Shown one piece after another: positions 18,723-34,732 of a stretch of 64,000 bases of DNA (position 1 is its first letter; every line of letters begins with the position of its first letter). Below the pieces are notes generated by a model. The model was not told the origin of the DNA, did no database searches, and saw only the letters and a program-made list of their open reading frames with translations. This DNA comes from Candidatus Thiodiazotropha sp. (ex Codakia rugifera) (GTDB taxonomy: Bacteria > Pseudomonadota > Gammaproteobacteria > Chromatiales > Chromatiaceae). Position numbers and translations under genes: made by a program. The DNA lies in the NCBI GenBank assembly GCA_025656675.1, contig JAHXHN010000012.1, positions 1 through 64,000 on the forward strand, read 5' to 3'.

Positions 18723-19544
18723 TTAGCTCAGTACCGTGGCAGCACGGTTGATGTGCTGTAATAGCCGAGCTGATATCTCCTCAATAGACATTGATGTGGT
18801 GTCCAGATAGGGGATTTTATAGTGCTTATACAGATCTTCAGCCAATTTGATCTCCATCTTACACTGTTCAAGGGAAGAGTAGCGACGATCAGGACGACGT
18901 TCCTGTCGGATGCGTTGCAGTTGCAGAGGATCGATAGTCAGGCCATACAGCTTTTCCCGATAAGTATTTAATGTTTTTGGGAGCAGGTCGTTATACAAGT
19001 CATCTTCCGTCAGCGGGTAATTAGCGGCTAGAACGCTATGTTGAAGGCCAAGAAACAGACAAGTAGGTGTTTTACCTACCCGTGATACACCGACCAGGAT
19101 CAGGTCGGCAGTGGTGTAGTTTTTTGTCACTGCCCCATCATCATTGTTCAGCGCAAAATTGACTGCATGGATGCGTCGATCATAGGCTCTGTTATTGTCA
19201 GTTGTGTGATAACGGCCTAATGCGTGGGAGGAGGGTAGGCTCAATTCCTCTTCAAGTCGGTTGGTAAATGACTCGAAGAAATCCATCACCGGGACATCCA
19301 GTTTCTTGAAATAGTCACGTATTCTGGGATCGACAAGGGTGGTGAATACGATCGGTTTTTCATCGGATTCGATGGTGGTCTGATTAATACGTTCTGCGAC
19401 ACGCCTGGCTTTTTCCAGGGTGTCGATAAATGGCCAATGAACTGTTTCATATTTGAAACCGTCGAATTGGCTCAATAGCGAGCGTCCCATCGCCTCGACA
19501 GTAATGCCGGTGTGGTCTGCAAGAAAGAAAATGGTCCGTTTCAT
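18723..19544 (-). CDS. ppsR: PEP synthase regulatory kinase/phosphorylase (DUF299)
   Basis: A bifunctional regulator that phosphorylates PEP synthase on a catalytic-domain threonine with ADP and removes it by phosphorolysis. The 273 residues match the family; the P-loop GVSRVGKTPTCLFLG is intact, as are the N-terminal FFLADHTGITVEAMGRSLL and C-terminal PYLDTTSMSIEEISA. ATG 19544 is taken because the family begins KRTIFFLADHTG; a frame back to 19592 lacks support. It lies 124 bases after ppsA on the same strand, with a strong hairpin between. In E. coli the two genes are divergent; here they are tandem. Confidence 0.95.
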   Translation of the reverse strand: MKRTIFFLADHTGITVEAMGRSLLSQFDGFKYETVHWPFIDTLEKARRVAERINQTTIESDEKPIVFTTLVDPRIRDYFKKLDVPVMDFFESFTNRLEEELSLPSSHALGRYHTTDNNRAYDRRIHAVNFALNNDDGAVTKNYTTADLILVGVSRVGKTPTCLFLGLQHSVLAANYPLTEDDLYNDLLPKTLNTYREKLYGLTIDPLQLQRIRQERRPDRRYSSLEQCKMEIKLAEDLYKHYKIPYLDTTSMSIEEISARLLQHINRAATVLS

Positions 19545-19633
19545 CAGATAGACTGCATGGTATTCATATACGTAGGAATGGCGCTTGGGCAAATATTGGT
19601 GCGACAGGACCGCACCTGACTAATGATGAATGC

Positions 19634-19660
19634 ATAGGGTGCGGCTCTGCCGCACCCTAT
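19634..19660 (-). terminator. 12-bp perfect hairpin between ppsA and ppsR
   Basis: ATAGGGTGCGGC (19634-19645) and GCCGCACCCTAT (19649-19660) form a perfect, GC-rich 12-bp stem with a TCT loop just after the ppsA stop. No T-run follows on either strand, so it may be a partial terminator, processing site or 3'-end protector setting the ppsA:ppsR ratio rather than a full stop. Confidence 0.55.
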
Positions 19661-19668
19661 CTGAATGT

Positions 19669-22077
19669 TCAGCCTTTTAAATTAGCCAAAAGTCGCCAGG
19701 TATCAACCACCGTATCCGGATTCAGCGAAATGCTGGCGATACGCTGTTCAACCAGCCACTCAGCCAGATCGGGATAGTCCGAGGGCCCCTGGCCACAGAT
19801 ACCGACATACTTGCCAGCATCGTTACAGGCCTGTATGGCCATGCTGAGCATTTTCTTCACTGCCGGGTTGCGTTCATCAAAACTTTTGGCAACCAGACCT
19901 GAATCTCGATCCAGTCCCAGAGTCAATTGGGTCATGTCGTTTGAGCCAATGGAAAAGCCATCGAAGTACTCCAGAAACTCCTTGGCCAGCACCGCATTGG
20001 ATGGCAATTCACACATCATGATGACCTTTAGCCCATTTACGCCACGTTTCAGCCCATTCTCTTCAAGCAGTTGGATAACCCCTGCGGCTTCTTCCAGGGT
20101 GCGCACGAAGGGAATCATGATCTCCACATTACTGAACCCCATCTCCTCACGGACCCGTTTCAATGCTTGGCATTCCAGTTCAAAGCAGGGTCTGAAGCTC
20201 TCTGAAATATAGCGTGAGGCGCCGCGAAATCCGATCATCGGGTTTTCTTCTTCAGGTTCGTAGAGCTTGCCACCGATCAAATTGGCGTATTCGTTCGATT
20301 TGAAATCGGACATACGAACAATCACAGATTTGCCATTAAAGGCTGCAGCCAGCGTGGATATACCCTCTACCAGCTTATCCACATAGAAACTGACCGGATC
20401 CTCGTAGCCATTGATCTGCTCCTGTACAGTGGATTTGATTTCAGCGGGTAGTTTGTCAAATTCCATCAGTGCACGGGGATGTACACCAATGGTGGTATTG
20501 ATGATGAACTCCAGACGTGCCAAACCGATACCGGCATTAGGGATGCGACTGAAAGCAAATGCGCGGCTGGGATTGGCTACATTCATCATTATCTTGGCTG
20601 GCGGTTCAGGTAAACTGGTGACATCGCCATGGGTGATTGAAAACTTCAGTAAACCTTCATAGATATAGCCATCGTCACCTTCGGCACAGGATACGGTTAC
20701 CTCCTGACCCTCAATCAGAGATTCGGTGGCATCATGACAGCCAACCACGGCAGGGATACCCAACTCACGGGCAATGATTGCCGCATGGCAGGTACGTCCG
20801 CCACGATTGGTCACAATCGCTGAGGCGCGTTTCATGACAGGCTCCCAATCCGGGTCGGTCATGTCGGTGATCAGCACATCTCCTGCTGCTACCTTGGCCA
20901 TTTCACTGGCATTGTGGATGATTTTCGCAACACCGCTACCGATGCGTTGACCTATCGCTCTGCCCTGAGCCAACACGTTACCATTCTCTTCCAGTTTAAA
21001 GCGTTCCACCGATGTGGCATCAACACGACTCTCCACGGTTTCAGGTCGAGCCTGCAGGATATAGAGCTGACCATCACTACCGTCCAGTCCCCATTCGATA
21101 TCCATTGGACGCTGATAGTGTTTCTCAATGGTGATCGCCATCTGCGCCAGGCTCTCTATCTGTTCACCGCTCAGGGAGAATTGTCGACGCTCCTGCTCTG
21201 GTACATCGACAGTCACGACACGCTCTTCGCCTGCCTGACCGTATACCATCTTGATCGCCTTGCTACCCAGATTACGGCGTAAGATTGCGGGTCGTCCCGC
21301 TTCTACATTTCCCTTATGCACATAGAATTCATCTGGATTGACTGAACCTTGTACAACGGTCTCGCCCAGACCATAGGAGCTGGTGATGAAAACAGCATCC
21401 TTAAAACCCGATTCCGTATCCAGGGTGAACATAACCCCAGCGGAACCGATATCAGAACGCACCATGCGTTGAATGCCTGCGGACAGGGCAACCTCTTCAT
21501 GTGCGAATCCCTGATGAACCCGATAGGAAATGGCGCGATCGTTATAGAGGGAAGCAAATACCTCCTTGATCGCGATCATGACATCATCCAGGCCCTGCAC
21601 ATTGAGGAAGGTTTCCTGCTGACCTGCGAAAGAGGCGTCAGGCAAGTCTTCCGCTGTTGCTGATGAGCGAACAGCTACCGAGGGAGGTTGGGCGGCATTG
21701 CCGGTGAGTTTTTTATAGGCTGCTGTGACTGCATTTTCCAGCGCTTCAGGGAAAGGGGCCTCAATAACCCACTCGCGTACTCTCTTACCTGCTTCAGCCA
21801 AGGCCGTCACATCCTCTACATCCAACTGTTTTAACAGTGGATCAATCCGTTCTGCGAGATGGTTATGGCGTAAGAACTCACGAAAGGCATGTGCGGTAGT
21901 TGCAAAACCACCAGGGACACTGACACCCGCATCGGCAAGGCCACTGATCATCTCTCCCAAGGACGCATTCTTACCGCCAACCTGGTCAACATCATGCATC
22001 TTAAGATTTTCGAACCAGATTATTTGCTCATTCACCGCTTGTCCTCGGCTCTTGGATTGATTAGATGGCTCATTCAT
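19669..22077 (-). CDS. ppsA: Phosphoenolpyruvate synthase
   Basis: Pyruvate, water dikinase: pyruvate + ATP + H2O to PEP + AMP + Pi, a gluconeogenic entry step. The 802 residues are normal. An N-terminal ATP-grasp region ([32 protein letters not shown]), the phosphohistidine domain with [19 protein letters not shown] (catalytic His), and a PEP-binding barrel ending [11 protein letters not shown] (catalytic Cys) are all seen. AGAGG lies 9 bases before the ATG. Only 5 bases separate it from the Cys-rich ORF that follows rnfA, so it appears to be part of the rnf/nifJ operon, an unusual position. Likely controlled post-translationally by PpsR. Confidence 0.97.
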
Positions 22078-22082
22078 TGTTT

Positions 22083-22280
22083 TTAACCTCTGAGGTGGTC
22101 TCCTTGACGTTGGCAGCTGCTACCACTGCACAGACAGCTTTTTCCACAGCCCGCACCCTCTTCCCTGGGGGGGCCTAGTTCTGGATGCAGTTTAGCGAAT
22201 CGCCGTGCGATTGACTGCACAATCAGCCAACCGAGCAGCAAGATGGGAATTAGAGTCATGGCAATAAGATAATCGATCAT
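22083..22280 (-). CDS. Small Cys-rich single-pass membrane protein in the rnf operon
   Basis: A 65-residue protein: one N-terminal membrane helix ([17 protein letters not shown]), a basic segment, then a cysteine cluster [14 protein letters not shown]. It resembles small FeoB- or NqrM-associated Cys-rich membrane proteins in layout only, and may help iron-sulfur or flavin assembly of Rnf (inference). It starts 14 bases after rnfA and ends 5 bases before ppsA. A run of seven C (coding strand, near 22170) lies just before the Cys-rich part. The other frame after this run stays open to a TGA overlapping the ppsA start, so slippage or a sequencing error would change the tail. Confidence 0.68.
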
Positions 22281-22294
22281 CGTGTCAATCCCAG

Positions 22295-22876
22295 CTAGCC
22301 TCCAAGGCCGGCGAAACCCATGAAAGAGAGAGAGAGGAGTCCGCCAAGCATCAGACTGACTGCAGCACCCTGGGTAATGCTGGGCATGGTTGAGAGTTCC
22401 AGCTTTTCCCTCAGACCGGCCATTAACAGAATTGCCAGAATAAAGCCTGTTCCCGCACCCAGGGCATAAACCAGGGATTGCAGGAAGTCGTACTCCTTGA
22501 AAGTCTGAAACAGTGCCAGACCGAGGATTGCACAGTTGGTTGTGATCAGAGGCAGAAAGATACCCAGAGAACGGAACAGACCGGGGGAGAACTTTTTCAG
22601 TGTCATCTCCACCAGCTGTACAGCACTGGCAATAACTGCGATATAGGCAATCAAACGCAGGAATTCGATATTAAATGAGACCAAAACGGTATTGATCAGG
22701 TAGGCGCAGATTGAACTCACCAACATCACGAACATTGTCGCCAATCCCATCGGAAGGGCGGTATTGAGTTTGCCGGAAACACCCAGAAATGGGCAAAGAC
22801 CGAGAAAGAGTGCTAAAACGAAATTGTTTGCCAGCACCGCATTGAGAAAGATGAAGCTGAGTGTTTCTGTTGCCAT
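22295..22876 (-). CDS. rnfA: Rnf complex subunit A
   Basis: A six-helix membrane subunit of the ion-translocating ferredoxin:NAD+ oxidoreductase, 193 residues. NFVLALFLGLCPFLG and ITTNCAILGLALF each carry a conserved cysteine of the pair that RnfA and RnfE use to hold an intramembrane iron-sulfur centre. It follows rnfE after a 151-base gap with short direct repeats, the largest gap inside the operon. Confidence 0.96.
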   Translation of the reverse strand: MATETLSFIFLNAVLANNFVLALFLGLCPFLGVSGKLNTALPMGLATMFVMLVSSICAYLINTVLVSFNIEFLRLIAYIAVIASAVQLVEMTLKKFSPGLFRSLGIFLPLITTNCAILGLALFQTFKEYDFLQSLVYALGAGTGFILAILLMAGLREKLELSTMPSITQGAAVSLMLGGLLSLSFMGFAGLGG

Positions 22877-22991
22877 GGGTGATGTTACTTTGTTCCAGGT
22901 TTTGTATTTTGTAATTTGAATATTGAATGAGTGAGTTCACTTTGCTCATCTCTTTTTTTATTCATAGGCAGTGTGTGCGCTTCACACACAT

Positions 22992-23025
22992 TCAATTCAA
23001 AATTCAAAAATATCAATTCAAAATT
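22992..23025. repeat. 13-bp direct repeat in the rnfE-rnfA gap
   Basis: TCAATTCAAAATT occurs at 22992-23004 and again at 23013-23025, a 21-bp period (two helical turns). On the coding strand these copies precede a TGTGTG/CACACA hairpin (near 22970-22990). The 151-base gap is much AT-richer than its surroundings. It could be a regulator site for an internal promoter before rnfA-orf-ppsA. Confidence 0.4.
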
Positions 23026-23027
23026 TA

Positions 23028-23675
23028 TCATCTTGTTTCCGCCACAGGCTCAAGTTCTGCTCGCTCTTTGCGTTGCTTCAGCCATTCAAACAGCAACAGC
23101 CATGCCCCGAGGACAAGAAAACCACCCGCTGGAAGCACCATGACTACCCAGGGTTCGAAACGGGGTCCGAAAAGATCAAAACCAAACAGGCTGCCGGCAC
23201 CGAGGATTTCACGTACCACACCCAGACAGAGCAGGGCGAAGGTAAAACCAATGCCCATTCCAAGGGCGTTGACCACCGCTTTCATGGGCCGGTTTCTTGA
23301 GGCGTAGGCTTCGGCGCGACCCAGAATCATACAATTCACCACAATCAGCTGAATAAAAGCACCCAATGCGTTATAGAGATCGAGGGAGATGGCTTGGATG
23401 GTGTAGTCGACGATGGTAACGAAGGTGGCAATGATCACGATGTAAGTGGCGATTCGCACCTGCTTGGGAATGCTGTGACGGAGCAGGGAGATCAGTGTGC
23501 CGGAGGCAAGTAGTACAAATGTGGTGGCAAGCCCCATGGCCAGAGCATTGATTGCCGAGTTGGTCACTGCCAGTACCGGGCACATGCCTAACAACATGAC
23601 AAACACCGGATTGTCATGCCACAGACCTTCACTGAAGGTGTCCCAGGTGATGACGTTGTTCTCTTTTTTAGCCAT
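23028..23675 (-). CDS. rnfE: Rnf complex subunit E
   Basis: A six-helix membrane subunit homologous to RnfA/NqrD, 215 residues from ATG 23675. NPVFVMLLGMCPVLAVTNSA and LIVVNCMILGRAEAYASRN carry the paired conserved cysteines; PMKAVVNALGMGIGF and REILGAGSLFGFDL are RnfE-typical. A longer frame to 23717 adds a residue stretch without family support. The C-terminal tail is charged and cytoplasmic. Confidence 0.95.
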   Translation of the reverse strand: MAKKENNVITWDTFSEGLWHDNPVFVMLLGMCPVLAVTNSAINALAMGLATTFVLLASGTLISLLRHSIPKQVRIATYIVIIATFVTIVDYTIQAISLDLYNALGAFIQLIVVNCMILGRAEAYASRNRPMKAVVNALGMGIGFTFALLCLGVVREILGAGSLFGFDLFGPRFEPWVVMVLPAGGFLVLGAWLLLFEWLKQRKERAELEPVAETR

Positions 23676-23764
23676 GGTCAATTCATTTAGATTGTGGTTT
23701 GTGGGTTTTTTGGGCACTACAAACCCGCGTGAATATTGAAATCAAGCACAGGCTGAATACATGC

Positions 23765-24484
23765 TTATTCATGGGTTACCTCCGCTTCATGCATAATAAA
23801 ACGCTCTTCCATCATTTTTTTCAGATGAGGGGCGATGCCAGGTAATAGCTGTTGAGCCGACTGGTTTAACGCTTTTCCCACTGCCTTTGAGGAAATTGTG
23901 GCGCCAGAGATGGCATCGATTTCCCAGGGATGCTGTTTGGTGCCATGTTTAACGGTGACAATTTCATTAGCCAGTGTTTTGCCATCATCGGCTAGTCGGG
24001 TCTCCAGTGCATCGAAGTTGGCTACAAAATTGGGATCTGTGATGATCTTGTCACCCAACCCAGGGGTTTCTGCCAATTTCAACACCTTGATTCCACGGAT
24101 GCATTGACAGACTGGATCATAACCGTAGAGTAGATAGATCATGTCTGCATAACCCTGTGCAGCGGCTTTGGCAGCAATACCCTTCAGTCGACCTTCACTA
24201 TCGTAGCCCGCGTAGATCAGAAGACCCTTAGCTGGGTTTTCCGCAGTGACAGCAACAACGCCGGACTCATTGATCACAAAGTCCTTTCGCGCAACAGCGC
24301 CGGGGATGACCTGGAAGACAGCCGCTTCAATAGCCCTGCGTTGATTTTCCTCGATCATCGGCTTTGTCAGTTGGTAGGTGAGTACCACCAGAAAGCCCGA
24401 TAACATGGCAATACCCATCAATGTACGGATCATGGGACCGGCAGGTGTCGCCGGTTTTATGACTTCAGCTTCGGGGGTGCTCAT
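23765..24484 (-). CDS. rnfG: Rnf complex subunit G (FMN-binding)
   Basis: A single-pass subunit with a periplasmic flavin domain, 239 residues. One N-terminal membrane helix (about 18-40) precedes the FMN-binding domain. ETPGLGDKI and the covalent FMN-threonine motif SGATISS (about residues 192-198) are intact. ATG 24484 overlaps the rnfD stop (ATGA), so the two are coupled. The insert with QCIRGIKVLKLAET is also family-like. Confidence 0.95.
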   Translation of the reverse strand: MSTPEAEVIKPATPAGPMIRTLMGIAMLSGFLVVLTYQLTKPMIEENQRRAIEAAVFQVIPGAVARKDFVINESGVVAVTAENPAKGLLIYAGYDSEGRLKGIAAKAAAQGYADMIYLLYGYDPVCQCIRGIKVLKLAETPGLGDKIITDPNFVANFDALETRLADDGKTLANEIVTVKHGTKQHPWEIDAISGATISSKAVGKALNQSAQQLLPGIAPHLKKMMEERFIMHEAEVTHE

Positions 24485-25527
24485 TTACTTGCCCTCTGCT
24501 GACCGAAGACACGGGGCTGGGTGATCTGGTCGATCAGTGGCGTGGCTGCATTGCCCAGAAGAATGGCATACATCACACCCTCGGTAAGGCCGCCGAAAAG
24601 ACGGATGATAACGGTAATGATACCAATCATCAGGCCATAGATGATGATTCCCAGCGGGGTAACAGGGGAACCTATCATATCGCTAGCCATGAACCAGGCC
24701 CCAAGCATCAGACCACCGGAGCAAAGCACAAACAGTGGATCGGGGTAACGCACTGGATCGATGAGAAAAAAGACGCCCGCAGTCAATGCCGCACCCAGCA
24801 TCACCATGACAGGAATACGCCAGTCGAGCATATTGCGTGCGGCCAGGTAGAGTCCACAGACCAGAATCAACAGTGCGGATGTTTCACCGGCAGATCCTGC
24901 TGTTGTGCCTAGCAACATATCCATGATGTCCGTTTGTACACCCTCAAATTTTTGCAGTGCCAAGGGTGTTGCCCCACTGAAGGCATCAATGTTGACTGTT
25001 TCAACCCACTCTCCGATGGTGGGTGACTGGAGAAAAGGGGGGGTCAGGGTTGTGGGAATAAATTGGCTGAACCGGTCCTCGAAAAAAGCGGGTGTCCAGG
25101 TGGTAATGGCTACAGGAAAGGCTGCCTGCACAAAGGCTCGGCCGATCAGTGCAGGATTCATTGCATTCATGCCGAGACCACCAAACAGGGCTTTGCCCAG
25201 GGCGATGGCTATAAATCCGGCTACTGCACCCATCCAAAGGGGAAAACCCGGTGGAAGGGTCAGCGCCAGTAATAAACCTGTTATGGTGGCTGACCAGTCA
25301 CTCAAGCTGCTGGCTGAATCATTCAGGCGATTGAATAGACGCTCACTCAACAGACAGGTAACCGTTACCACGATGAGTAGAGCGAGAGCACTCAATCCAA
25401 ATTCCCAGATGGTAAATGCACATATTGGAAGTAGGGCATAGATCACATTGCGCATGATCCTCACAACATCGTCACCCGCATGTGCATGGGGTGACGTACG
25501 TAGTTCAATTGTGGGTTTCTTGCTCAT
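24481..25527 (-). CDS. rnfD: Rnf complex subunit D (FMN-binding membrane subunit)
   Basis: A multi-helix membrane subunit of 348 residues from ATG 25527. The start SPHAHAGDDVVRIM is RnfD-typical; the FMN-threonine motif SGATPLA is present in the periplasmic loop near the middle. ATGA overlaps link it to both rnfC (upstream) and rnfG (downstream). A longer frame to 25617 only reads through the end of rnfC. Confidence 0.95.
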   Translation of the reverse strand: MSKKPTIELRTSPHAHAGDDVVRIMRNVIYALLPICAFTIWEFGLSALALLIVVTVTCLLSERLFNRLNDSASSLSDWSATITGLLLALTLPPGFPLWMGAVAGFIAIALGKALFGGLGMNAMNPALIGRAFVQAAFPVAITTWTPAFFEDRFSQFIPTTLTPPFLQSPTIGEWVETVNIDAFSGATPLALQKFEGVQTDIMDMLLGTTAGSAGETSALLILVCGLYLAARNMLDWRIPVMVMLGAALTAGVFFLIDPVRYPDPLFVLCSGGLMLGAWFMASDMIGSPVTPLGIIIYGLMIGIITVIIRLFGGLTEGVMYAILLGNAATPLIDQITQPRVFGQQRASK

Positions 25528-26864
25528 ACTGCCTGTTCTCTGTTGATCGCCTTGGCAATCCGAAAATATTGTACAAGTGGTATGTTGGAAGGACATACAT
25601 AAGAACAACAACCACATTCGAAGCAGTCGTTGAGGTGGTACTCCTGGGCCATCTCTTCATATTTACGTTTGGCGGCCATTTGCCCTAGGATAGAGGGGTT
25701 GAGGTGCATTGGACAGGCATAGACGCAACGTGCACATCGAATACAAGGCCAGATTCTATGGCTCTCCTCCTCAATTGAGGGCTCGTTGAGCACCAGCAGA
25801 CCGGAAGTCCCCTTAGTGATGGGTGTGTCCATGGCAGAGACTGCCGGTCCCATCATCGGCCCACCTAAAATAAATTCAGTACGGGATCCTTCATAGCCTG
25901 CCTGCTGCAAAATATGGCTTATCGGTGTTCCCAGAGGGACCATGTAGTTGCCGGGTTTGACAACCCCCGGGCCAGCAACAGTAATGACACGCTCAATCAA
26001 TCCCTGGCCTTCGGGAAGCAGTTGCCCAAGGCTTGCCAGGGTGCCCACATTATTGACAACCACACCAACATCGGCCGGTAGCCCGCCAGCCGGTACTTCA
26101 CGGTCGAGTAGCGATTTAATCAACATCTTCTCGGAGCCTTGCGGATACTTGGTTTCTACCGCCTCGACCCGTACTGGACTGCCCTTTGAGAGGTGACTCC
26201 GCAACACTTCGACGGCATCCATCTTATTGTCTTCAATGCCGATGATGGCCTGGCTGGTGCCAGATGCCCGCATCGCATAACGTATACCCCTCAACAACTG
26301 TTTCGGATACTCGAGCATGATACGGTGATCGCAAGTCAGATAGGGCTCGCACTCACAGCCATTGATAATCAGGGTATCGACCTGCTTACCCTCGGGTATC
26401 ATCATCTTTATATGGGAAGGAAAGGCGGCCCCGCCCAGCCCCACCATGCCGCTATCCTGAATCGCATGAATGATCTCCTGCTGGGTGAGGTCGCTCATCT
26501 CCTGGGGTTGTCCCCACAGGACCTCCTGAGTGGATCCCTCATACACATCCAACACGATAGCGTTGGATTTTGGGCCCTTGGGAGTCGGCATTAACTCGAT
26601 CACCCTTACCCGGCCGGTTGCAGGGGCGTGTATGGGTACAGAGAAATTGCCATCCGCCTTGGCAATAAGCTCCCCACGTACCACTTCCTGTCCTTTACGG
26701 ACCATAGGGATGGCTGGTTTACCTATATGTTGATCCAGCGGTAATACCAATTCCACTGGAAAAGGGAGACGGCGTATCGGTTTGTCCGCCGTATCCTTAT
26801 GGTAGGGCGGATGGATGCCGTGGGTGAAGCTTTTCAGCCCAAACAGCAGGTTGAGAAGTCCCAT
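25524..26864 (-). CDS. rnfC: Rnf complex subunit C (iron-sulfur, NADH/FMN site)
   Basis: A peripheral subunit of 446 residues that carries the NADH-reactive site. An N-terminal sandwich-hybrid region (GIHPPYHKD) is followed by the NuoF-like nucleotide/FMN domain (GLGGAAFPSHIKM, INGCECEPYLTCDHR) and two C-terminal 4Fe-4S motifs CIRCARCVYACP and CFECGCCSYVCP. It lacks the long C-terminal repeat extension of enterobacterial RsxC. It lies 92 bases after nifJ with a strong hairpin between, and overlaps rnfD. Confidence 0.96.
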   Translation of the reverse strand: MGLLNLLFGLKSFTHGIHPPYHKDTADKPIRRLPFPVELVLPLDQHIGKPAIPMVRKGQEVVRGELIAKADGNFSVPIHAPATGRVRVIELMPTPKGPKSNAIVLDVYEGSTQEVLWGQPQEMSDLTQQEIIHAIQDSGMVGLGGAAFPSHIKMMIPEGKQVDTLIINGCECEPYLTCDHRIMLEYPKQLLRGIRYAMRASGTSQAIIGIEDNKMDAVEVLRSHLSKGSPVRVEAVETKYPQGSEKMLIKSLLDREVPAGGLPADVGVVVNNVGTLASLGQLLPEGQGLIERVITVAGPGVVKPGNYMVPLGTPISHILQQAGYEGSRTEFILGGPMMGPAVSAMDTPITKGTSGLLVLNEPSIEEESHRIWPCIRCARCVYACPMHLNPSILGQMAAKRKYEEMAQEYHLNDCFECGCCSYVCPSNIPLVQYFRIAKAINREQAV

Positions 26865-26881
26865 ATCATTCAGACTCGGTT

Positions 26882-26909
26882 AACGGGTGGATCTGACGAT
26901 CCACCCGTT
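26882..26909 (-). promoter_or_regulatory. 12-bp intercistronic hairpin between nifJ and rnfC
   Basis: AACGGGTGGATC (26882-26893) pairs perfectly with GATCCACCCGTT (26898-26909) around a TGAC loop. No T-run follows on the minus strand, so this is better read as an mRNA processing or stability element protecting the nifJ 3' end than as a terminator. It sits 17 bases before the rnfC start. Confidence 0.5.
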
Positions 26910-26956
26910 TGATGAAAAGCGTGTTCTGTCAGCAATCATTGCTTTTGCCAACATGC

Positions 26957-29900
26957 TTATTGGTATTTGGCCGCACGCTTGACCCACTTATCCAAATCCT
27001 TCTCCGATGGATTCCAGGGTGTACCGGGATGTATACAGCCGGCAGTGCATTTCTCCGCCGACTTGACGATGTCCTTAAAGTGGCCCGCTTTGGCATCGAC
27101 GATAATCGCCTTCTTATCATCGTTATAGCTGAAGATCTTTGGATTAATATCGATGCACTCATCACAAGCGGTACACTCCGGGGTCTCGATCCATACCGGT
27201 TCATAATCACCCGCTTCACCACCGCCACCTGCATCTGAAGCCATAGCGCCGGCACCGGCGCCATTTGCCGAGATTGAACCTGCCAATGCCCCGGCATTAC
27301 CACTGGCTGCCATCGAAAGCAGTGTAGAACTGAGGCGATTGGCCATATCGACCTTGGCCTGGTCTACCAAGGCATTCACATCCACTTTATTGAGTTCGCC
27401 GGCAATACCCTTGAGTTGACGCCAGAATTGACGGCGCTCATCACAAGAGAGGGCGATCTCTTTGGCACAGATGATGCGCGTCAAGCGATTCTTGGCATCG
27501 ACACCCCAGATGTACGGGAATTTACCGTCACGATCATCTTCGTCAAAGTCCAGGAATTCGTGCATCGGTACCATGTTGTCATTCCAGGTCTCCGGCGGTG
27601 CTGTACGGAACTGCTTACGGAAACGGCCCTCGGTAACAGCAAAGTCTGCAAAGGTCATGGGGACTTCCAGTTTGCACTCCTTGCCTTTCTCATCCTGATA
27701 GCTGATGTTGTACATTGGCCAATCATCATCCATCGCCGGATTGCCTTCCAGGTCGATACATTCCTCTATGCTTTCACCGGCATCCGGATCATATTTCATC
27801 AGCGGATAACCGCGTGACTCCACGGCCAGTTTGGATTGCTGAGAGGCTATATCATCACCGATTCCATGCTCTGGCGGGCAGACTGCATAGATGTTGAACA
27901 GTGCCGGACGACGACTGTTCAATCCATCGATATAACCCTCCAACAGATGGGTGATGTTACTGATGGTACTCTGCAGGACATAGGTCGTACGGTGGGCGAT
28001 ACCGATCAACGAGACCTCCTTGCGGATCTCTTCCTTGCCCTTCCAGGCTTTGCCGTAGGGGCTCATGTCTGCCACCTGGCCGATATAGCCTGAAGTACAA
28101 GCTTGTCCACCGGTATTGGAATAGACCTGGGTATCGAGTACCAGTACCTTGATGGGCATGCCCGAGGCAAGCGCCCTGGAAAGGTTCTGGAAACCGATAT
28201 CGTACATTGCGCCGTCACCGCCTATGGAGACAACTGGCGGACACAGCAGCCATTCATCATCGGTAAACTGTTTCCAACTGAACTGCTTGAAGAAGTCTTC
28301 ATGCTCGGCCAGGTTGTATTTGCCGGCCAGTTCCAGCTCAGCTTTGCGGATGGCGGAAAAGCCATCCGCCATCTTGCACATATGTCCTTCGAAGAGACCC
28401 ATGGCAACCGATGGGCTGTCCTGGAACAGGTGGCTGGCCCAGGGGAAAGGGTAGGGGTTATAGGGATAGGTGGAACCCCAAACGGAGGTACAACCCGTTG
28501 CGTTGACAATGCCCATCTCAGCACGTCCGTTCTTGCTGGTGCCTTCGGCATAGCGCCATTTGAGGTCACGCAGCTCATCCAGCAACTGGGTCACCCACTG
28601 CAACCATTCACGATCAATCACGGTTTTCTCATGACCGCTGTCGAGATTGTCGCTCAGGTTGGAGAGAGTCAGGTCACTTTCGCTGTCATTCGAGGCAGCC
28701 TCGGCAATCGCAGTTGCGTTACTCAGATCGACGCCGGCAGCCAGTTTCAGCCGTACATGCTGCTCCAGCTGTTCGATCAACTTGTCGATCTTTTCCAGCT
28801 GCTGTTTGACCCGTGGCTGCATCAGTGCGGTTACGGTACCGGTAAAGAGATGAATAATGGTCTTCTCACCACATCCCAGGCAGGCTCCATCACCGCAGGA
28901 CATGGAGTTGTAGTTGGCCTTGTCCATCAACAGTGTCTGCAGGGCGCCAATCTTCTCATCCAGGTCATCGATGCGGTTGAATGACGGGTCGCTGGTAGGC
29001 AGTTCCAGCCAGAAGTCCCAATCGTTGCGCAGTCGCTGAATGGCTGCTTCATCCTGATGGGTGGCGACCAATGCATCGTCTTCACAGATTTCGACACACT
29101 CCATACACCCTTTACAGGTATAGGGATTGACGGTGATGGAGAAGAGTCCACCGCTGTTTTTGTTCTTCTTCTCCATGTTGTTCCAATACGGTTTGGTAAC
29201 CGAAAATTCGAATTCACCCAAGGACTGTAGGAACAGGCCGAACTCTTCTTCAAGCGCAGGACGGGCATCATCCTCAATCTCGGCAGCAGCTATGCATTCC
29301 AGTACAGCCTGATCAAGCATGGTGCGTACATCTGCGGCTTCACCGGATTCGTTCAATAATTCACGCAGCCGCTTCTCCACATTGCGGCTTTCGCGTCGCA
29401 GATACTGGGTAGGACGACCACCTGTTTCAATGTGGTTGATGGCAGTGGCAAACACATCGGTGACGGTGTTGACCAGACCCGGTATGGCACTGTCAGGGCA
29501 GACAGTGTAACAGTCACCACAGGCAGTACAGTTTTCCGCCACCCATTTCGGATAGTCGAAACGAATCTGGGTCATATCACGATAGACGCCGGTGGCGGCG
29601 GGTATCAATGACAGGGCTTGATAGGGGTCCGCCAGGTTGTCATTACCTTTGCCGGAGGCATAGAAGCTGCCTGTTTGTTCCCAGAAACGGTGCACATCGG
29701 AGATGCCACCCTCTGTCTGAGGGAGCTGCTTGAGCATGACAGGCATACCCAGCTCTTTTTTGACCGGCATTTGAGCGGATGAGCCAATCGTCTTATTGGT
29801 GATTTCATGAATCTCATCGAATCCGCGACGTACCACTCGCAGATTATCTTCCACCACACGACGGCCTTTGCTACCGAATTTGCTGACCAGTTGGTCCTCG

Positions 29901-31897
29901 ATTGCGGAGAATAGTTTCTTCTCATCCAGACCTGACATCTCCATCAGCGGTGAGCCGGCAAAGAAGGCACCCTGGAAGGCATTACCCTGCATACGCAGTT
30001 GCAGCTCTGCATCGGAAGCCTCTTCACGAGCAATCTTAAAGCCATCCACATAGAAGACATGGATCTCATTTTCTATGACCTGCTGCTGCATCCAGCGGGG
30101 GAAGGAGTCCCACACATCATCAGTGCTGGCAAGGTTGGATTGGATGATCAGTGTGCCCCCCTTCTTCAAGCCGGATAAAGGGTTGGAGTGACCAAATACA
30201 TTCGGGTCAGGACTCAACACCACATCGACATAGTGGTACTCACAGTTGAGCGGTATCGGTGTAGGCGCTGCGGAGAGATAATAGGTGGTTGGCTGACCCT
30301 TTTTCTCAGAACCGTATTTCGGATTTGCCTTGATCTCATAACCGAGCAGATCATAGAGGGTCATAACCAGGTTTTTGCCGGTGGTAATGGCACCCCATCC
30401 ACCCACTGAATGCATACGAACCGTAATCGAACCCTCGGGCATCAGATTTGGGTTCTCAGAGCCGCGTACAGCTATGTCACCGATATCGGGATAGGCCTCA
30501 AGCAGCTTCTGGATATGGATCTCTTGTTTGGGTGTGCTTGCTTCCCTGACAAAATCGATACCCAGGTAGAAAAACTTGCGATGTTCACCTTCAGGTAACA
30601 TGTTTTCAATGGCACCAATCAATGCTTCAGGCTGAAGATCCCGTGAGCCCAGGCCGTAGGCACCTGAGTAGAGATGTGGCGCATCGGCAAAGCTGCCATA
30701 GCTGTTGTATTTGGGGTAAGGCTGTGTCTGCTTAGTCGCAGCGGCCTGGCCGTTTTCAATACACTTGGAAACGACGGAACGTACTTCACGCATCAGGGGC
30801 AGGTCTTCTGCCAGCGGCTGGTCGGTGCGCTCCAGCACACAAACACCCTTTTTCCCTTTCAGGATGGTGCCCAAGAGATCACCGGGGAAGGGACGAAACA
30901 TGGTGATATCGATGATACCGACCTTCAGCTTACGGGTTTTCTGCAGATAATCGGCAACGCCATGGGCCTGTACGATCATCGATCCCATACCAACGATGAC
31001 ATAGTCGGCTTTGTCTGTGTTGTAACAACCGATACGCTCGTAGCGACGCCCAGTGAGTTCGTAGTACTCATCCATCACCTGGTCAGCGATGTCAGGGATA
31101 TGCTGAAAGAAGTAAGGACGCTGAGACGCAGTGGTCTGCATATAGGCATCCTGATTTTGTACAGAACCGGAGAGCATGGGGTTGTCGACGTCCCAGATTG
31201 CGGGAACACGGCGGCGAGTCTCACCAAATAGCATCTTTTGGGCCGGTGTCGGGCATTCAATTTCATCATCCGGACGACCCAGATATTCAGTGATCAACTC
31301 ACGCTCCGGTACCTGCAGCGGTTCAATCAGGTGGGTGGTGAGGAAGCCGTCCTGGGCAACGGCAGCAGGGGTCAGAGAGAGCTCGGCAATTTTTCGGCCA
31401 ATCAGATTGAGGTCAGCTGCACCCTGGGCATTATTGGCAAATACCTGGAAAAAACCGGTATCGTCGATACAGTGATAGTCGTCATGACCACAGTGTACAT
31501 TCAATGAGGCCTTGGTAATTGCGCGACACCCAATGTTCAGTACGTAAGGCAAACGTTTACCGACTGCGGCATACAGGGATTCGTGCATGAAAGCCACGCC
31601 CTGTGCCGAGGAGAAATTGGTTGAACGCAGACCGGTCATGGACATGCCCGCGGTGACCGCCGCTGCCGCATGTTCCGATTCAGGTTCAATGAAGATCAGT
31701 GATCGGTCCGAGATGTTGATATGGCCCTTGGCCGTCTCTTCTGCCCAGTATTCACCCATCTGGGTTGAGGGCGTGATGGGGTAAGCACCAGCCGCATCGG
31801 AGGCCTCCCGCTCACACATAATCACCGCGCCGTTGCCATCCATTGCCATGCGGATACCGGGGTATTTGAAGGTCTTCTCGTCTTTTTTACCAAACAT
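26957..31897 (-). CDS. nifJ: Pyruvate:ferredoxin (flavodoxin) oxidoreductase, extended form with C-terminal ferredoxin
   Basis: Reversible pyruvate + CoA + oxidised ferredoxin to acetyl-CoA + CO2 + reduced ferredoxin. All PFOR modules are present: the pyruvate/TPP domain (YPITPSTQMGEYWAEE near residue 40), the gamma domain, a two-cluster ferredoxin domain (CTACGDCYTVCP near 785, CKGCMECVEIC near 925), the proximal-cluster segment CGDGACLGCGEK (near 1005) and the TPP motif GGDGAMYD (near 1225). At 1646 residues it is some 450 longer than usual NifJ (about 1170-1200). There are helical inserts of roughly 90-100 residues between the two ferredoxin motifs and before the TPP domain. After a Gly/Ala-rich linker comes an extra ferredoxin domain (CTACDEC near 1575, CTAGC near 1620). 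It sits inside the rnf operon. Confidence 0.95.
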   Translation of the reverse strand: MFGKKDEKTFKYPGIRMAMDGNGAVIMCEREASDAAGAYPITPSTQMGEYWAEETAKGHINISDRSLIFIEPESEHAAAAVTAGMSMTGLRSTNFSSAQGVAFMHESLYAAVGKRLPYVLNIGCRAITKASLNVHCGHDDYHCIDDTGFFQVFANNAQGAADLNLIGRKIAELSLTPAAVAQDGFLTTHLIEPLQVPERELITEYLGRPDDEIECPTPAQKMLFGETRRRVPAIWDVDNPMLSGSVQNQDAYMQTTASQRPYFFQHIPDIADQVMDEYYELTGRRYERIGCYNTDKADYVIVGMGSMIVQAHGVADYLQKTRKLKVGIIDITMFRPFPGDLLGTILKGKKGVCVLERTDQPLAEDLPLMREVRSVVSKCIENGQAAATKQTQPYPKYNSYGSFADAPHLYSGAYGLGSRDLQPEALIGAIENMLPEGEHRKFFYLGIDFVREASTPKQEIHIQKLLEAYPDIGDIAVRGSENPNLMPEGSITVRMHSVGGWGAITTGKNLVMTLYDLLGYEIKANPKYGSEKKGQPTTYYLSAAPTPIPLNCEYHYVDVVLSPDPNVFGHSNPLSGLKKGGTLIIQSNLASTDDVWDSFPRWMQQQVIENEIHVFYVDGFKIAREEASDAELQLRMQGNAFQGAFFAGSPLMEMSGLDEKKLFSAIEDQLVSKFGSKGRRVVEDNLRVVRRGFDEIHEITNKTIGSSAQMPVKKELGMPVMLKQLPQTEGGISDVHRFWEQTGSFYASGKGNDNLADPYQALSLIPAATGVYRDMTQIRFDYPKWVAENCTACGDCYTVCPDSAIPGLVNTVTDVFATAINHIETGGRPTQYLRRESRNVEKRLRELLNESGEAADVRTMLDQAVLECIAAAEIEDDARPALEEEFGLFLQSLGEFEFSVTKPYWNNMEKKNKNSGGLFSITVNPYTCKGCMECVEICEDDALVATHQDEAAIQRLRNDWDFWLELPTSDPSFNRIDDLDEKIGALQTLLMDKANYNSMSCGDGACLGCGEKTIIHLFTGTVTALMQPRVKQQLEKIDKLIEQLEQHVRLKLAAGVDLSNATAIAEAASNDSESDLTLSNLSDNLDSGHEKTVIDREWLQWVTQLLDELRDLKWRYAEGTSKNGRAEMGIVNATGCTSVWGSTYPYNPYPFPWASHLFQDSPSVAMGLFEGHMCKMADGFSAIRKAELELAGKYNLAEHEDFFKQFSWKQFTDDEWLLCPPVVSIGGDGAMYDIGFQNLSRALASGMPIKVLVLDTQVYSNTGGQACTSGYIGQVADMSPYGKAWKGKEEIRKEVSLIGIAHRTTYVLQSTISNITHLLEGYIDGLNSRRPALFNIYAVCPPEHGIGDDIASQQSKLAVESRGYPLMKYDPDAGESIEECIDLEGNPAMDDDWPMYNISYQDEKGKECKLEVPMTFADFAVTEGRFRKQFRTAPPETWNDNMVPMHEFLDFDEDDRDGKFPYIWGVDAKNRLTRIICAKEIALSCDERRQFWRQLKGIAGELNKVDVNALVDQAKVDMANRLSSTLLSMAASGNAGALAGSISANGAGAGAMASDAGGGGEAGDYEPVWIETPECTACDECIDINPKIFSYNDDKKAIIVDAKAGHFKDIVKSAEKCTAGCIHPGTPWNPSEKDLDKWVKRAAKYQ

Positions 31898-31995
31898 TGA
31901 ACACTTCTCTTGTCTAGTTACTGGTTATGACTTCTAGTTTATTAAATTGCATTGAACGAACTAAAGTCTCAAAACCGAACACTGAGGCTACCTGC

Positions 31996-32874
31996 TTATA
32001 GAGGTAACGCTTCATTGCGTACGATGCGCTTAGCTTTAACACCTTTTATCGGGCCCCTGTCATCATCCAACCATACGATGGCCCCAGTCGGGCAACGCTC
32101 CGTTGCAATCGGTGAGGCGAAACCGTTATTGCTGTAATCAACCACAGCCAGGTTGTCTTGAATGGTGATCAGTCCCTCGGGTGAATCCTTCACACATCGC
32201 TCACAGGCTGTACAGGCTACTTCACAGTTGTTTTCTGCTGTATCTTCATCTTCCAGGTTCTTGCATGCCACCCACAGACGGCGATCCACGGGGTGGATGG
32301 AGAATAACCCCTTTGGACAGATATCCACACAATCCTCACATGCCGTGCATTTCGCAGCGTCTACGATCGGCAGGCCATGGTGGTCCATGGTGATGGCATC
32401 AAAGTCGCATACTTCAGCACAGTCAGCCAATCCGATGCAGCCCCAGGTGCAACTCTTAGGCCCACCTGAAACAACAGCTGCTGCTCGACAGCTTTCAAGA
32501 CCTTTGTAATGAGCGCGCATGCGGGCGACATGAGTACCACCCGCACAAGCAAGCCGAGCGACGCGTTTAACCACATCTCCCGCATCAACACCCAGGTAAT
32601 CGGCAATTTCATCAATTGCTTCACTGCTACTGACCGTGCACTGAGCGGGGGTGACCTCGCCGGAAATCAGGGCTTCGGCAAAAGGTCGACAACCGGCATT
32701 GCCACAGGCACCGCAGTTAGTGGCAGGTAGCATGCCCTCAAGATCATCGATACGTGGATCCTCGAATACCCAGAGTTTCTTGTTGGCAAACGCAAGCATG
32801 GAGGAGAGCAACAGCCCAAGCACCCCCATAAAGAGGATAGCGGTTGTAACATTCAGTGCTATGTCAATATCCAT
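31996..32874 (-). CDS. rnfB: Rnf complex subunit B (multi-cluster ferredoxin subunit)
   Basis: The electron-entry subunit of Rnf, 292 residues, long form. An N-terminal membrane helix (ILFMGVLGLLLSSML) precedes the 4Fe-4S domain NCGACGNAGC...C, then a ferredoxin pair (CTWGCIGLADCAEVC and CTACEDCVDICP) and a C-terminal ferredoxin region. In this last region the first motif reads CTACERCVKDSP (fourth Cys replaced by Ser) and the second keeps only ERCP: one of the two clusters has been lost as a unit. ATG 32874 is used; TTG 32886 is possible. First gene of the rnf-nifJ-pps run. Confidence 0.94.
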   Translation of the reverse strand: MDIDIALNVTTAILFMGVLGLLLSSMLAFANKKLWVFEDPRIDDLEGMLPATNCGACGNAGCRPFAEALISGEVTPAQCTVSSSEAIDEIADYLGVDAGDVVKRVARLACAGGTHVARMRAHYKGLESCRAAAVVSGGPKSCTWGCIGLADCAEVCDFDAITMDHHGLPIVDAAKCTACEDCVDICPKGLFSIHPVDRRLWVACKNLEDEDTAENNCEVACTACERCVKDSPEGLITIQDNLAVVDYSNNGFASPIATERCPTGAIVWLDDDRGPIKGVKAKRIVRNEALPL

Positions 32875-33479
32875 AACCTTTACCAACTGTCATGTGAGGA
32901 TAATCCAACTGAAACCGGGAACAGTTTAGTGATGGGTTTAGTATTGGTCCATGGAGTGGGTTCAATAGAAAGTATTAATTTTCTGAAATACCCTCATGTA
33001 TTGGCTGAGCAAATAATTACTATAGCTTAGTGCCGAGTATAGCTGACCATTCCTCTGCCAACTCTATACTCAGAGCCATGGAAATCAACCCTGCTGGCTT
33101 GTCTGGAAACGATCTCCATCCACCTGAGAAACAGGTAATTTGATATTTAATAAAAAATTTGTGGAACCTTTTTCCCACAATAAGCGTGTTATCCATTAAG
33201 AGCTACTGTAGGGAAATGTTGTAACGAGTCTTTATTAGTCAACACTATAAGTAGTGTCTGGACAAAAACTGCGACCTTGGTCATGTCGGCACATGCCTGA
33301 ATCTAGTAAGTCATTGTATACCCTGGATTCAGCCTTAATCCGTATTGACACAATTTTTTGAAAAGTAAGTTTTCCCGGATACTAACTGGTACACCGTTAA
33401 TATCATCTTGATGGAGTGCCAGGTGACAATGGTAGCTTAAGTAGTTTGGAGTTTTAAGGAATAAGTAGTTGAGGAAGCT
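32875..33479. other. 605-base divergent intergenic region (rnfB / ECF sigma)
   Basis: No supported gene; a minus-strand 74-codon frame (33303-33527) overlaps the sigma start and lacks a ribosome binding site. It must hold the rnf promoter (minus) and the sigma operon promoter (plus). Visible signals: an 8-bp inverted repeat GAGTATAG (33035-33042) / CTATACTC (33064-33071), a possible rnf operator; a GGAACC...CGTGTT pair (separate entry); TTGACA at about 33346 without a good -10. The rest is AT-rich. Confidence 0.45.
33163..33190 (+). promoter_or_regulatory. Candidate ECF-type promoter (GGAACC-N16-CGTGTT)
   Basis: GGAACC at 33163-33168 is followed after 16 bases by CGTGTT at 33185-33190, close to the GGAAC/CGT pattern of many ECF sigma factors. 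It would give the sigma gene at 33480 a leader of about 280 bases and imply autoregulation. This rests on motif resemblance only. Confidence 0.3.
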
Positions 33480-34061
33480 TTGAATATTTTCTCCTTCAAA
33501 TATCGTGAGAGTAGCAATTTTGAACAACTGTTGGAGCCCTATTTCGATCAGTTATACCGACTGGCATTCCGTTTCACCACAAATCAGGATGAGGCGGAAG
33601 ATCTATTACAAGAGCTATTGACAAAACTCTATCCAAAACAGGATCAGCTACAACAGATTGAGGATCTTAAGCCCTGGTTGGCTCGTTCACTTTATAACTT
33701 GTTCATTGACAGATACCGAAGCAGCACTCGCTCCGCTATTGATCTGATCGATCGTGACTCGTCAGAAAAACTCGATAATTTACGCGATCATGCTGAAAAT
33801 CCAGAGGAACTCAATGCGCGTTGGCAGATACAGGATCTACTTAGTAAGGCCATGTTTAAATTGAGTGAACCACATCGGATTTTGTTGATCCTGCACGACA
33901 TAGAAGGTTACAGCCTGCCCGAACTGACGGACGTGCTCAACCTGCCACTCGGCACACTTAAATCACGTCTGCACCGGGCTAGAGATGGATTACGTATCAT
34001 CCTTACCAGGGAACCTTTCAGTAGCATTGGACGTGTTTCTAGTGAGAGGCAGCAAAAATGA
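33480..34061 (+). CDS. ECF RNA polymerase sigma factor
   Basis: A 193-residue group 4 sigma-70 factor. Region 2 (about 18-85) has FDQLYRLAFRFTTNQDEAEDLLQE; region 4 (about 120-175) has the helix-turn-helix ending LPLGTLKSRLHRARDGL. The start is TTG 33480, with GAGGAAGC directly upstream as ribosome binding site. It overlaps the anti-sigma gene by ATGA, so the pair is made in a fixed ratio. The downstream genes are an exported coiled-coil protein and an outer-membrane-type protein, which points to an envelope regulon. Confidence 0.94.
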   Translation: MNIFSFKYRESSNFEQLLEPYFDQLYRLAFRFTTNQDEAEDLLQELLTKLYPKQDQLQQIEDLKPWLARSLYNLFIDRYRSSTRSAIDLIDRDSSEKLDNLRDHAENPEELNARWQIQDLLSKAMFKLSEPHRILLILHDIEGYSLPELTDVLNLPLGTLKSRLHRARDGLRIILTREPFSSIGRVSSERQQK

Positions 34062-34732
34062 ACTGTAATGCAATCAGATCAAGATTAAATGAGTACTTGG
34101 ATAGAACGGTGACTCTGCCGGTCAGGGCCGAAATTGAAGCTCATCTGATGATTTGTTCCAGCTGTCAATTGGAGCTGCAAGCCAGACAGGAATTACTTTT
34201 AAGATTACGAAAGTTGCCTGTTCCGCCAGTACGGCCTGGATTTCGCAAACAGGTGTTCAAGCATGCACGCAAGGCCGATAAAAAAAACCATTTTGGTTTT
34301 ATCGTGGGTTTTAGCAGTGCTGTCACTGCAGGTCTTTTGATCTGGTTAATTACGACATTCTGGCTGGACCAAGATTCACCAGAAGCACTGCTCATGCCCA
34401 GTGTTGTACTGACAGTGGAACAACCAAGCGATCTTCGTCTGGTATTTAATGCAAATGATGATCTCCTACAGGTGGGTTTTACCCTTCTACTTCCTCCTGG
34501 GGTAGTCATGGAAGGTTTTCCTCCACAGCATGAGATTACCTGGCAAGATCGATTGGTGAAGGGTAGGAACGTACTGAATCTGAGCCTTGTGGCCTCCCAG
34601 GGGGTGAGTGGTGAAATTATTGCAATGATCAGCCATGAAGGTAGAGAACGACTATTCCGTATCCCATTCAGATCTGTGTTACGGAGGGCAGGTAATCTAC
34701 CGTCTCGAGGAAAGGCATCAATATTTATTTAA
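34058..34732 (+). CDS. Zinc-type anti-sigma factor (ZAS), single-pass
   Basis: A cognate anti-sigma factor of 224 residues. The N-terminus has Cys3 and the H-x3-C-x2-C motif (His29, Cys33, Cys36) of zinc-binding anti-sigma domains, then a basic linker, one membrane helix (about 77-98: GFSSAVTAGLLIWLI) and a beta-rich periplasmic domain (about 110-215) that may sense the signal. The ZAS motif can make release redox- or metal-dependent. It is coupled to the sigma gene by a 4-base overlap. Confidence 0.88.
   Translation: MNCNAIRSRLNEYLDRTVTLPVRAEIEAHLMICSSCQLELQARQELLLRLRKLPVPPVRPGFRKQVFKHARKADKKNHFGFIVGFSSAVTAGLLIWLITTFWLDQDSPEALLMPSVVLTVEQPSDLRLVFNANDDLLQVGFTLLLPPGVVMEGFPPQHEITWQDRLVKGRNVLNLSLVASQGVSGEIIAMISHEGRERLFRIPFRSVLRRAGNLPSRGKASIFI

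Follow-up and report, generated by a model that had tools for sequence, protein, structure and literature searches.

The rnf-PFOR operon and its long PFOR

The window, which is the whole analysed stretch of 64,000 nucleotides from Candidatus Thiodiazotropha sp. (ex Codakia rugifera), carries ten co-oriented genes on the minus strand in the order rnfB–PFOR–rnfC-D-G-E-A–small cysteine-rich ORF–ppsA–ppsR (all coordinates given here refer to that strand). A preliminary description of this DNA had listed these genes as one single-strand run from rnfB to ppsR, and the open reading frames bear this out in order and strand. Nine of the ten genes are named by Pfam or NCBIfam models, the small Cys ORF being the exception, and the probable starts of rnfB (32874), rnfD (25527), rnfE (23675) and ppsR (19544) were read by eye from the translations. 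A full set of six Rnf subunits (rnfA, B, C, D, E and G) is encoded, with scores over or near the model cut-offs. The ferredoxin-side subunit comes from an rnfB of the long type (31996..32874; TIGR01944 87.8 bits, cut-off 68.7), for which PRK07118-type models score higher than TIGR01944 yet remain below their own cut-offs, and the NAD(H)-side subunit from rnfC (25524..26864; TIGR01945 508 bits, cut-off 246). Then follow rnfD (24481..25527; TIGR01946 286 bits, cut-off 207), rnfG (23765..24484), which has an FMN_bind match and lies with 100.2 bits 1.8 under the TIGR01947 cut-off of 102, rnfE (23028..23675; TIGR01948 235 bits, cut-off 213), and rnfA (22295..22876; TIGR01943 235 bits, cut-off 229).

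Between rnfB and rnfC lies the gene of a long PFOR (26957..31897) that is matched by POR_N, PFOR_II, POR and TPP_enzyme_C and has intact motifs. It had been described as nifJ, and the assignment to the PFOR superfamily holds, as all its features are found (POR_N, PFOR_II, POR-gamma, two [4Fe-4S] clusters, and a TPP domain with GDG and NTGGQ), but an ordinary NifJ is ruled out by the length of 1646 aa as compared to 1171-1232 aa in the solved single-chain relatives, by a TIGR02176 score of 404 bits against a cut-off of 911, and by a best-segment identity of only 26% to the genome's own NifJ. In an alignment restricted to distinct open frames with 1400 aa or more, from which shorter frames cut at contig ends were dropped, the catalytic positions that were checked are intact in 49/49 window-type sequences including that of the window. 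These positions comprise the TPP glutamate and asparagine, the GGDG, the four cysteines of the proximal cluster, and both CxxCxxCxxxC clusters, whose roles we take to be those of the Desulfovibrio africanus enzyme. Records that match the protein at 97% identity belong to Candidatus Thiodiazotropha.

The additional length includes a C-terminal extension. A Gly/Ala-rich tether (residues 1536-1563; 27209..27292), which in the 49 sequences has 20-37 residues with 57% A+G, leads to a putative [4Fe-4S] ferredoxin domain (residues 1566-1646; 26960..27202). The tail matches Fer4_13 with an E-value of 4.7e-5 and 24.4 bits, slightly below the Pfam cut-off of 24.5, and its last 80 residues match ferredoxin I (PDB 1dax) with a phmmer E-value of 0.0005. 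Cysteines 1575, 1578, 1581, 1617 and 1621 of the tail are invariant in the 49 sequences; in four loci (L165, L175, L176, L178) the fifth was seen by eye to be replaced, while CxxCxxC and the fourth cysteine are retained. Judged by its sequence, the window PFOR is thus a representative of a divergent class with intact catalytic residues and a fused ferredoxin domain. Its substrate is probably pyruvate rather than another 2-oxoacid, as is suggested by similarity and, where ppsA is present, by the neighbouring gene. There are also long PFORs that lack both Rnf neighbours and a tail ferredoxin (L161-L164, 34-35% best-segment identity), and therefore length alone is no sign of a link to Rnf.

Behind rnfA, the small ORF (22083..22280) encodes a membrane-anchored Cys-rich protein that has homologues after rnfA in relatives, and it is followed by the PEP synthase gene ppsA (19669..22077; TIGR01418 1182 bits, above the equivalog cut-off of 740). 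The intervals reported earlier, 14 bases from rnfA to the Cys ORF and 5 bases from there to ppsA, are exact. The gene ppsR for the PEP synthase regulatory kinase/phosphorylase (18723..19544; NF003742 276 bits, cut-off 225; NF049928 348.9 bits, about 1 bit short of the cut-off of 350) does come next, as had been stated, but it is joined less tightly than ppsA, with a hairpin, recognized by eye, in the ppsA-ppsR gap. In the source genome (4.65 Mb on 19 contigs), ppsR is present as sole copy and ppsA is the only full-length PEP synthase match; contig C15 carries another gene with a PPDK_N match.

Upstream of rnfB, a block at 32923..32981 is the most conserved leader stretch in 12 aligned loci including the window, which makes it a candidate promoter/operator, and no comparable block occurs in the four internal gaps of 13-16 Thiodiazotropha-type loci. 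The sequence checks thus lean towards a single promoter before rnfB. Promoter-like sites (9 versus 17.6 in shuffles) and terminator-like sites (11 versus 12.5) are not in excess over shuffled sequences. Several internal gaps of the window contain hairpins, and the transcript may therefore be cut or attenuated. A riboswitch before rnfB was also considered and discarded, as there is no Rfam match.

Conservation of the core and the slot after rnfA

Loci of the window's type, here termed type 1, were collected in several searches: 49 came from an exact peptide-word search, which favours near relatives, and 18, 3, 2 and 2 were added by later searches, resulting in 74 loci, many of which are closely related. 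Neighbours were recounted without the filter for non-overlapping best matches, which hides rnfD, rnfB or korB. Of the 70 readable loci (four further loci are cut), 66 have rnfB immediately before PFOR and 69 have rnfC immediately after it, and in the 70th (L039) rnfC comes after the second of two PFOR pieces. The gene rnfD follows rnfC in 69/69 readable loci, and an earlier count of the core order in the first 67 loci gave 55/56. In the four exceptions, rnfB either stands after a ferredoxin-NADP reductase (FNR) gene (L152, L175) or was not seen (L166, L167); in L165, rnfG, rnfE and rnfA were not found within 7 kb after rnfD. With 66/70 and 69/70 readable loci, a chance adjacency can be ruled out. 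The dedicated Rnf-PFOR module that had been proposed from the window, with the proviso that the rnfB-nifJ-rnfC adjacency must not be limited to one genome, therefore exists and is conserved across loci.

Most carriers are Gammaproteobacteria, and there are carriers also in the Kiritimatiellota. With the own genome included in each case, type 1 is present in 95/170 genomes of the window's order, in 20/370 genomes (18/272 genera) sampled from the class, and in 3/397 genomes sampled from the phylum. Among 288 genomes of the phylum of one Kiritimatiellota carrier, 13 have a match, nine of them at 59-65% identity and four at 37-38%; all of these four were read and have neither Rnf neighbours nor a tail ferredoxin. 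PFOR stands before rnfC also on megaplasmids of Persicobacter (L175, Bacteroidota) and Gemmatirosa (L176, Gemmatimonadota). The Gemmatirosa locus has korA, korB and a 344-aa ORF without family, followed by rnfB-PFOR-rnfCDG-apbE-rnfEA, with intact PFOR motifs. A separate ferredoxin gene that had been assumed there from two BLAST pieces was withdrawn, as both pieces lie in one open frame.

Operons often unite enzymes that draw on a common pool, and one may thus think of plain co-regulation, in which PFOR and Rnf share an mRNA and a soluble ferredoxin pool without any physical link, the tail ferredoxin replacing the usual external one. Soluble ferredoxins are probably present in the cell, and rnfB is displaced in the few loci mentioned, which would both agree with such an arrangement. 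The constant place of PFOR before rnfC and the built-in ferredoxin with its invariant cysteines in 49 sequences speak against it, and we regard it as unlikely. The conserved presence of a PFOR with its own ferredoxin inside the rnf set, in sulfur-oxidising symbionts and here and there in other bacteria, rather suggests that the pump may feed electrons straight into the pyruvate reaction.

Less constant is what follows rnfA. A homologue of the Cys ORF is found there in 44/44 loci of the peptide-word set in which the region is covered, whereas in the second set of 18 loci 8 gave a match, three more (L152, L153, L158) showed the ORF on inspection by eye, and L154 and L157 leave no room for it. 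The protein has no Pfam match at E-values up to 10 and no NCBIfam match; it is a possible factor for the maturation of Rnf clusters. In the slot behind the Cys ORF, counted in the first 67 loci, 10 of which are cut, the 57 readable loci have ppsA in 26 cases, FNR in 25, ppsR alone in one and neither in five, and in no locus are ppsA and FNR found together in the slot. The FNR was named PetH/BoxA-like from models that score below their cut-offs; an FNR relative is encoded elsewhere in the stretch of L035, which was counted as neither, and also elsewhere in the window's genome. Beyond those 67 loci, L178 has ppsA in the slot and ppsR before rnfB, and L166, L167 and L175 have FNR. Among cultured carriers, Allochromatium humboldtianum has the FNR form. 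The gap from the Cys ORF to ppsA has a median of 6 bases (n=26), 20 of these 26 loci have ppsR behind ppsA, and the loci with ppsA in the slot come from at least five families. On a PFOR tree, made by a quick method, the ppsA label changes at least four times, and ppsA therefore joined or left the operon repeatedly. The rnfA-ppsA adjacency of the preliminary description thus recurs well beyond one genome, but the place is taken by FNR nearly as often, so that the link to PEP represents one of two arrangements that recur. Since there are FNR forms and bare forms, the core function of the Rnf-PFOR unit does not lie in PEP synthesis.

It is probable, though far from certain, that the Rnf pump is dedicated to the single PFOR, that the tethered ferredoxin shuttles between the two, and that the ppsA form runs most likely in the reductive direction. 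Electrons would pass from NAD(H) via RnfC/D/G/E/A, coupled to ion flow, to RnfB, from there to the tethered ferredoxin and to PFOR, which interconverts acetyl-CoA + CO2 and pyruvate, and it would be the tethered and not a diffusing ferredoxin that carries them between RnfB and the PFOR clusters. We infer that the tail docks to RnfB, and likewise the direction and the physiological use. In the ppsA form, the ion gradient and NADH would drive the formation of pyruvate from acetyl-CoA and CO2, and PpsA would pull the pyruvate to PEP under the control of PpsR, as in a conversion of acetate or stored PHA to sugars; in the FNR form, the same core would exchange electrons also with NADP. It is because of the neighbouring ppsA that pyruvate synthesis and PEP formation are favoured for the window operon, and a C2-to-C3 direction is plausible for this form.

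PFOR is reversible, and symbionts encounter anoxia, so that the same wiring might be used in the opposite direction: in an anoxic pyruvate oxidation, the tethered ferredoxin would feed RnfB, and Rnf would pump ions and make NADH, with ppsA and ppsR being co-expressed for balance only. Also the FNR form (25/57) would fit a disposal of ferredoxin electrons to NADPH, and Rnf works both ways (PMC12174285). A ppsA in the same tight operon would in this case compete for the pyruvate, and its recurrence in the slot in several families likewise speaks against such a use, which is why the reversed direction appears rather improbable for the ppsA form, if somewhat less so than plain co-regulation.

A second operon with a degenerate POR

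The genome carries three Rnf sets and, besides the window PFOR, six POR_N matches, among them a canonical NifJ of 1192 aa and the degenerate POR described below; pyruvate oxidation or synthesis could therefore run elsewhere. In the third Rnf set, rnfABCDGE, RnfB is short and divergent (29% identity, frame of 204 aa), and therefore the long RnfB goes with the PFOR/POR enzymes. Operon 2, at C1:393-409 kb, has the order korA-korB–p840–rnfB–POR–rnfC-D-G-E-A, followed by a similar Cys ORF that was recognized by eye. With the KorAB models TIGR03710 and TIGR02177, its korA reaches 494 bits (cut-off 483), whereas korB stays with 230 bits below the cut-off of 262. The protein p840 matches the C-terminal third of PFOR with 30% identity, tail ferredoxin included.

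The POR of this second type has 1572 aa and shows 27% identity to the window PFOR across about 1500 residues. All 32 distinct sequences have changes at the TPP glutamate and asparagine and at the first and third cysteines of the proximal cluster; the second cysteine is changed in 30/32 and the fourth in 31/32, so that in these 32 sequences neither the TPP-binding residues nor the proximal cluster of an active enzyme are found. Both CxxCxxCxxxC clusters are retained in 32/32, and six more type-2 PORs from outside the order give the same picture (clusters retained in 6/6). Type 2 occurs in 37/170 genomes of the order and in 8/370 of the class. It was considered that operon 2 may require operon 1, which is not the case: the 170 genomes comprise 24 with both, 71 with type 1 only, 13 with type 2 only and 62 with neither, and the two types show no association (Fisher p 0.26). 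In 14 loci related to operon 2, korA, korB and p840 precede rnfB in 10, which is 10 of the 12 readable ones; L135 and L140 are cut ahead of rnfB, both with p840, and in L129 and L130 rnfB and the dead POR are present, with no korAB or p840 in the preceding 9-12 kb. In L136 and L137, a flavoprotein of the FrdA/NadB family and a NuoF-like gene, both below equivalog cut-offs, stand before korA, in L137 with an Fe-S protein ahead of these two.

The loss of the TPP residues and of the first proximal cysteine in all sequences, together with the two loci in which no korAB or p840 accompanies the dead POR, could point to a pseudogene in decay or to a subunit with a structural role only, which does not transfer electrons. 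The frames of about 1500 aa stay open in many genera, both clusters are kept throughout, also outside the order, and the tail-ferredoxin cysteines of p840 are retained in 11/11 aligned sequences, and decay or a purely structural role is hence very improbable. The type-2 POR is apparently a dead PFOR that has been kept as an electron wire: it retains only the electron clusters and stands after rnfB, beside korAB, which fits an electron link to Rnf. Its retention at the same place also argues against the plain co-regulation discussed above, as it calls for a role other than catalysis.

In operon 2, the POR would thus link RnfB to KorAB as the 2-oxoacid enzyme. In some relatives, the flavoprotein and Kor genes would fit a run in the reductive direction, from fumarate towards 2-oxoglutarate. 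The position behind rnfB is occupied by a working PFOR or by one with clusters only, and the simplest reading is that this position serves as electron link from RnfB to a 2-oxoacid enzyme, which would be the own active site or KorAB. We read both operons, on the basis of their genes, as putative Rnf pumps that are each wired to one 2-oxoacid:ferredoxin enzyme. It is tempting to go further and to propose a single membrane complex of PFOR and Rnf in which ion flow drives pyruvate synthesis and the ferredoxin acts as a swinging arm, and to see in the duplicate PFOR a non-catalytic adaptor that couples KorAB, a separate 2-oxoglutarate synthase, to an Rnf of its own. This can be put forward only tentatively, with chances somewhat short of even; if true, every ferredoxin-dependent carboxylation would have its private ion-powered electron supply.

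Significance and relation to known systems

Ferredoxin-dependent CO2 fixation needs electrons at about -500 mV, and to our knowledge it is not settled how sulfur oxidisers obtain them. A pump that is dedicated to one carboxylase would directly answer this question, which could be addressed in cultured purple sulfur bacteria, and it would be unusual for an enzyme of such size to end up, dead but conserved, as wiring. The strangest parts are the ferredoxin that is fused to PFOR and the paralogous operon with KorAB, dead POR and Rnf.

A PFOR with a built-in electron partner is known from the Euglena-type pyruvate:NADP+ oxidoreductase, in which PFOR is fused to a reductase; here, in contrast, the partner is a ferredoxin encoded beside the genes of a membrane pump, and a reductase comes in only with the FNR form, from an adjacent gene. 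With the single-chain NifJ enzymes (PDB 1b0p, 6cin, 7plm), the window PFOR shares the domain set and the TPP and cluster residues, but it is about 400 aa longer due to insertions and the tethered C-terminal ferredoxin, and it stays below the TIGR02176 cut-off.

The components themselves have been noted before. In the portion of the Kentron paper that was covered, PFOR, PEP synthase, Rnf and PHA are listed for Thiodiazotropha and a carboxylation of PHA-derived acetyl-CoA to pyruvate by PFOR is argued for Kentron, and that portion does not mention an operon with PFOR inside rnf (PMC6593406). For Thiomargarita, the corresponding excerpts note Rnf and PFOR and do not link the genes (PMC4914600, PMC4853749). 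Neither the operon nor the dead POR was found named in the open-licence literature, which was covered as listings, abstracts and excerpts.

Like NqrM (DUF539) of Na+-NQR, as described in PMC12174285, the Cys ORF product is a small membrane protein encoded behind the genes of a pump, but there is no sequence match between the two, nor a Pfam match at E-values up to 10. The gene order rnfBCDGEA is that of the Chlorobi/Bacteroidetes-type Rnf, as given in an excerpt of PMC4014512, and the operons agree with it except for the insert: here, PFOR stands between rnfB and rnfC, and the Cys-rich membrane ORF, often with ppsA or FNR, stands after rnfA. The KorAB 2-oxoacid:acceptor oxidoreductase, finally, is represented in operon 2 by genes that share their run with a full Rnf set and two degenerate paralogues of PFOR.

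Pyruvate oxidoreductase genes beyond the window operon

In the second rnf operon of the same genome, the PFOR paralogue (L058:4626-9344, G000:C1) lies between rnfB and rnfC with korAB adjoining, and it and its relatives lack the TPP residues and the proximal cluster while both ferredoxin clusters are kept. In the related loci L129 and L130 this dead POR follows rnfB, and neither korAB nor p840, which resembles the C-terminal third of the window PFOR, was found in the 9-12 kb before it. Elsewhere in the genome (L060:6740-10937) a POR alpha-beta pair adjoins a pyridine-nucleotide oxidoreductase that contains ferredoxin domains. Loci L161-L164, from the same phylum as a Kiritimatiellota bacterium that carries rnfB-PFOR-rnfC, encode long PFORs that stand alone: their motifs are intact, but they lack the tail ferredoxin and have no Rnf genes beside them. 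These PFORs possibly represent the ancestral form.

Upstream genes and intergenic hairpins

Upstream of rnfB, at 33480-34732, the window has a divergent gene of the sigma-70 family together with one for a putative zinc-finger protein (zf-HC2); in a gammaproteobacterium (L035:8025-9011) the divergent upstream gene, named by eye from its sequence, is a LysR-type regulator. Within the operon, hairpins without a clear T run were recognized by eye in the gaps PFOR-rnfC (26864-26957), rnfE-rnfA (22876-23028) and ppsA-ppsR (19592-19669), which may be processing or attenuation sites.

The small Cys ORF after rnfA

Directly after rnfA (22083-22280) is encoded a small one-helix protein with a C-terminal Cys cluster, and most such operons have this ORF, though not L154 or L157. 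Similar ORFs were seen by eye 3' of rnfA in the second operon (L058/L073) and at some distant loci. No known family was matched by the protein, and its likeness to NqrM, the small membrane protein of Na+-NQR encoded after the pump genes, is one of position.
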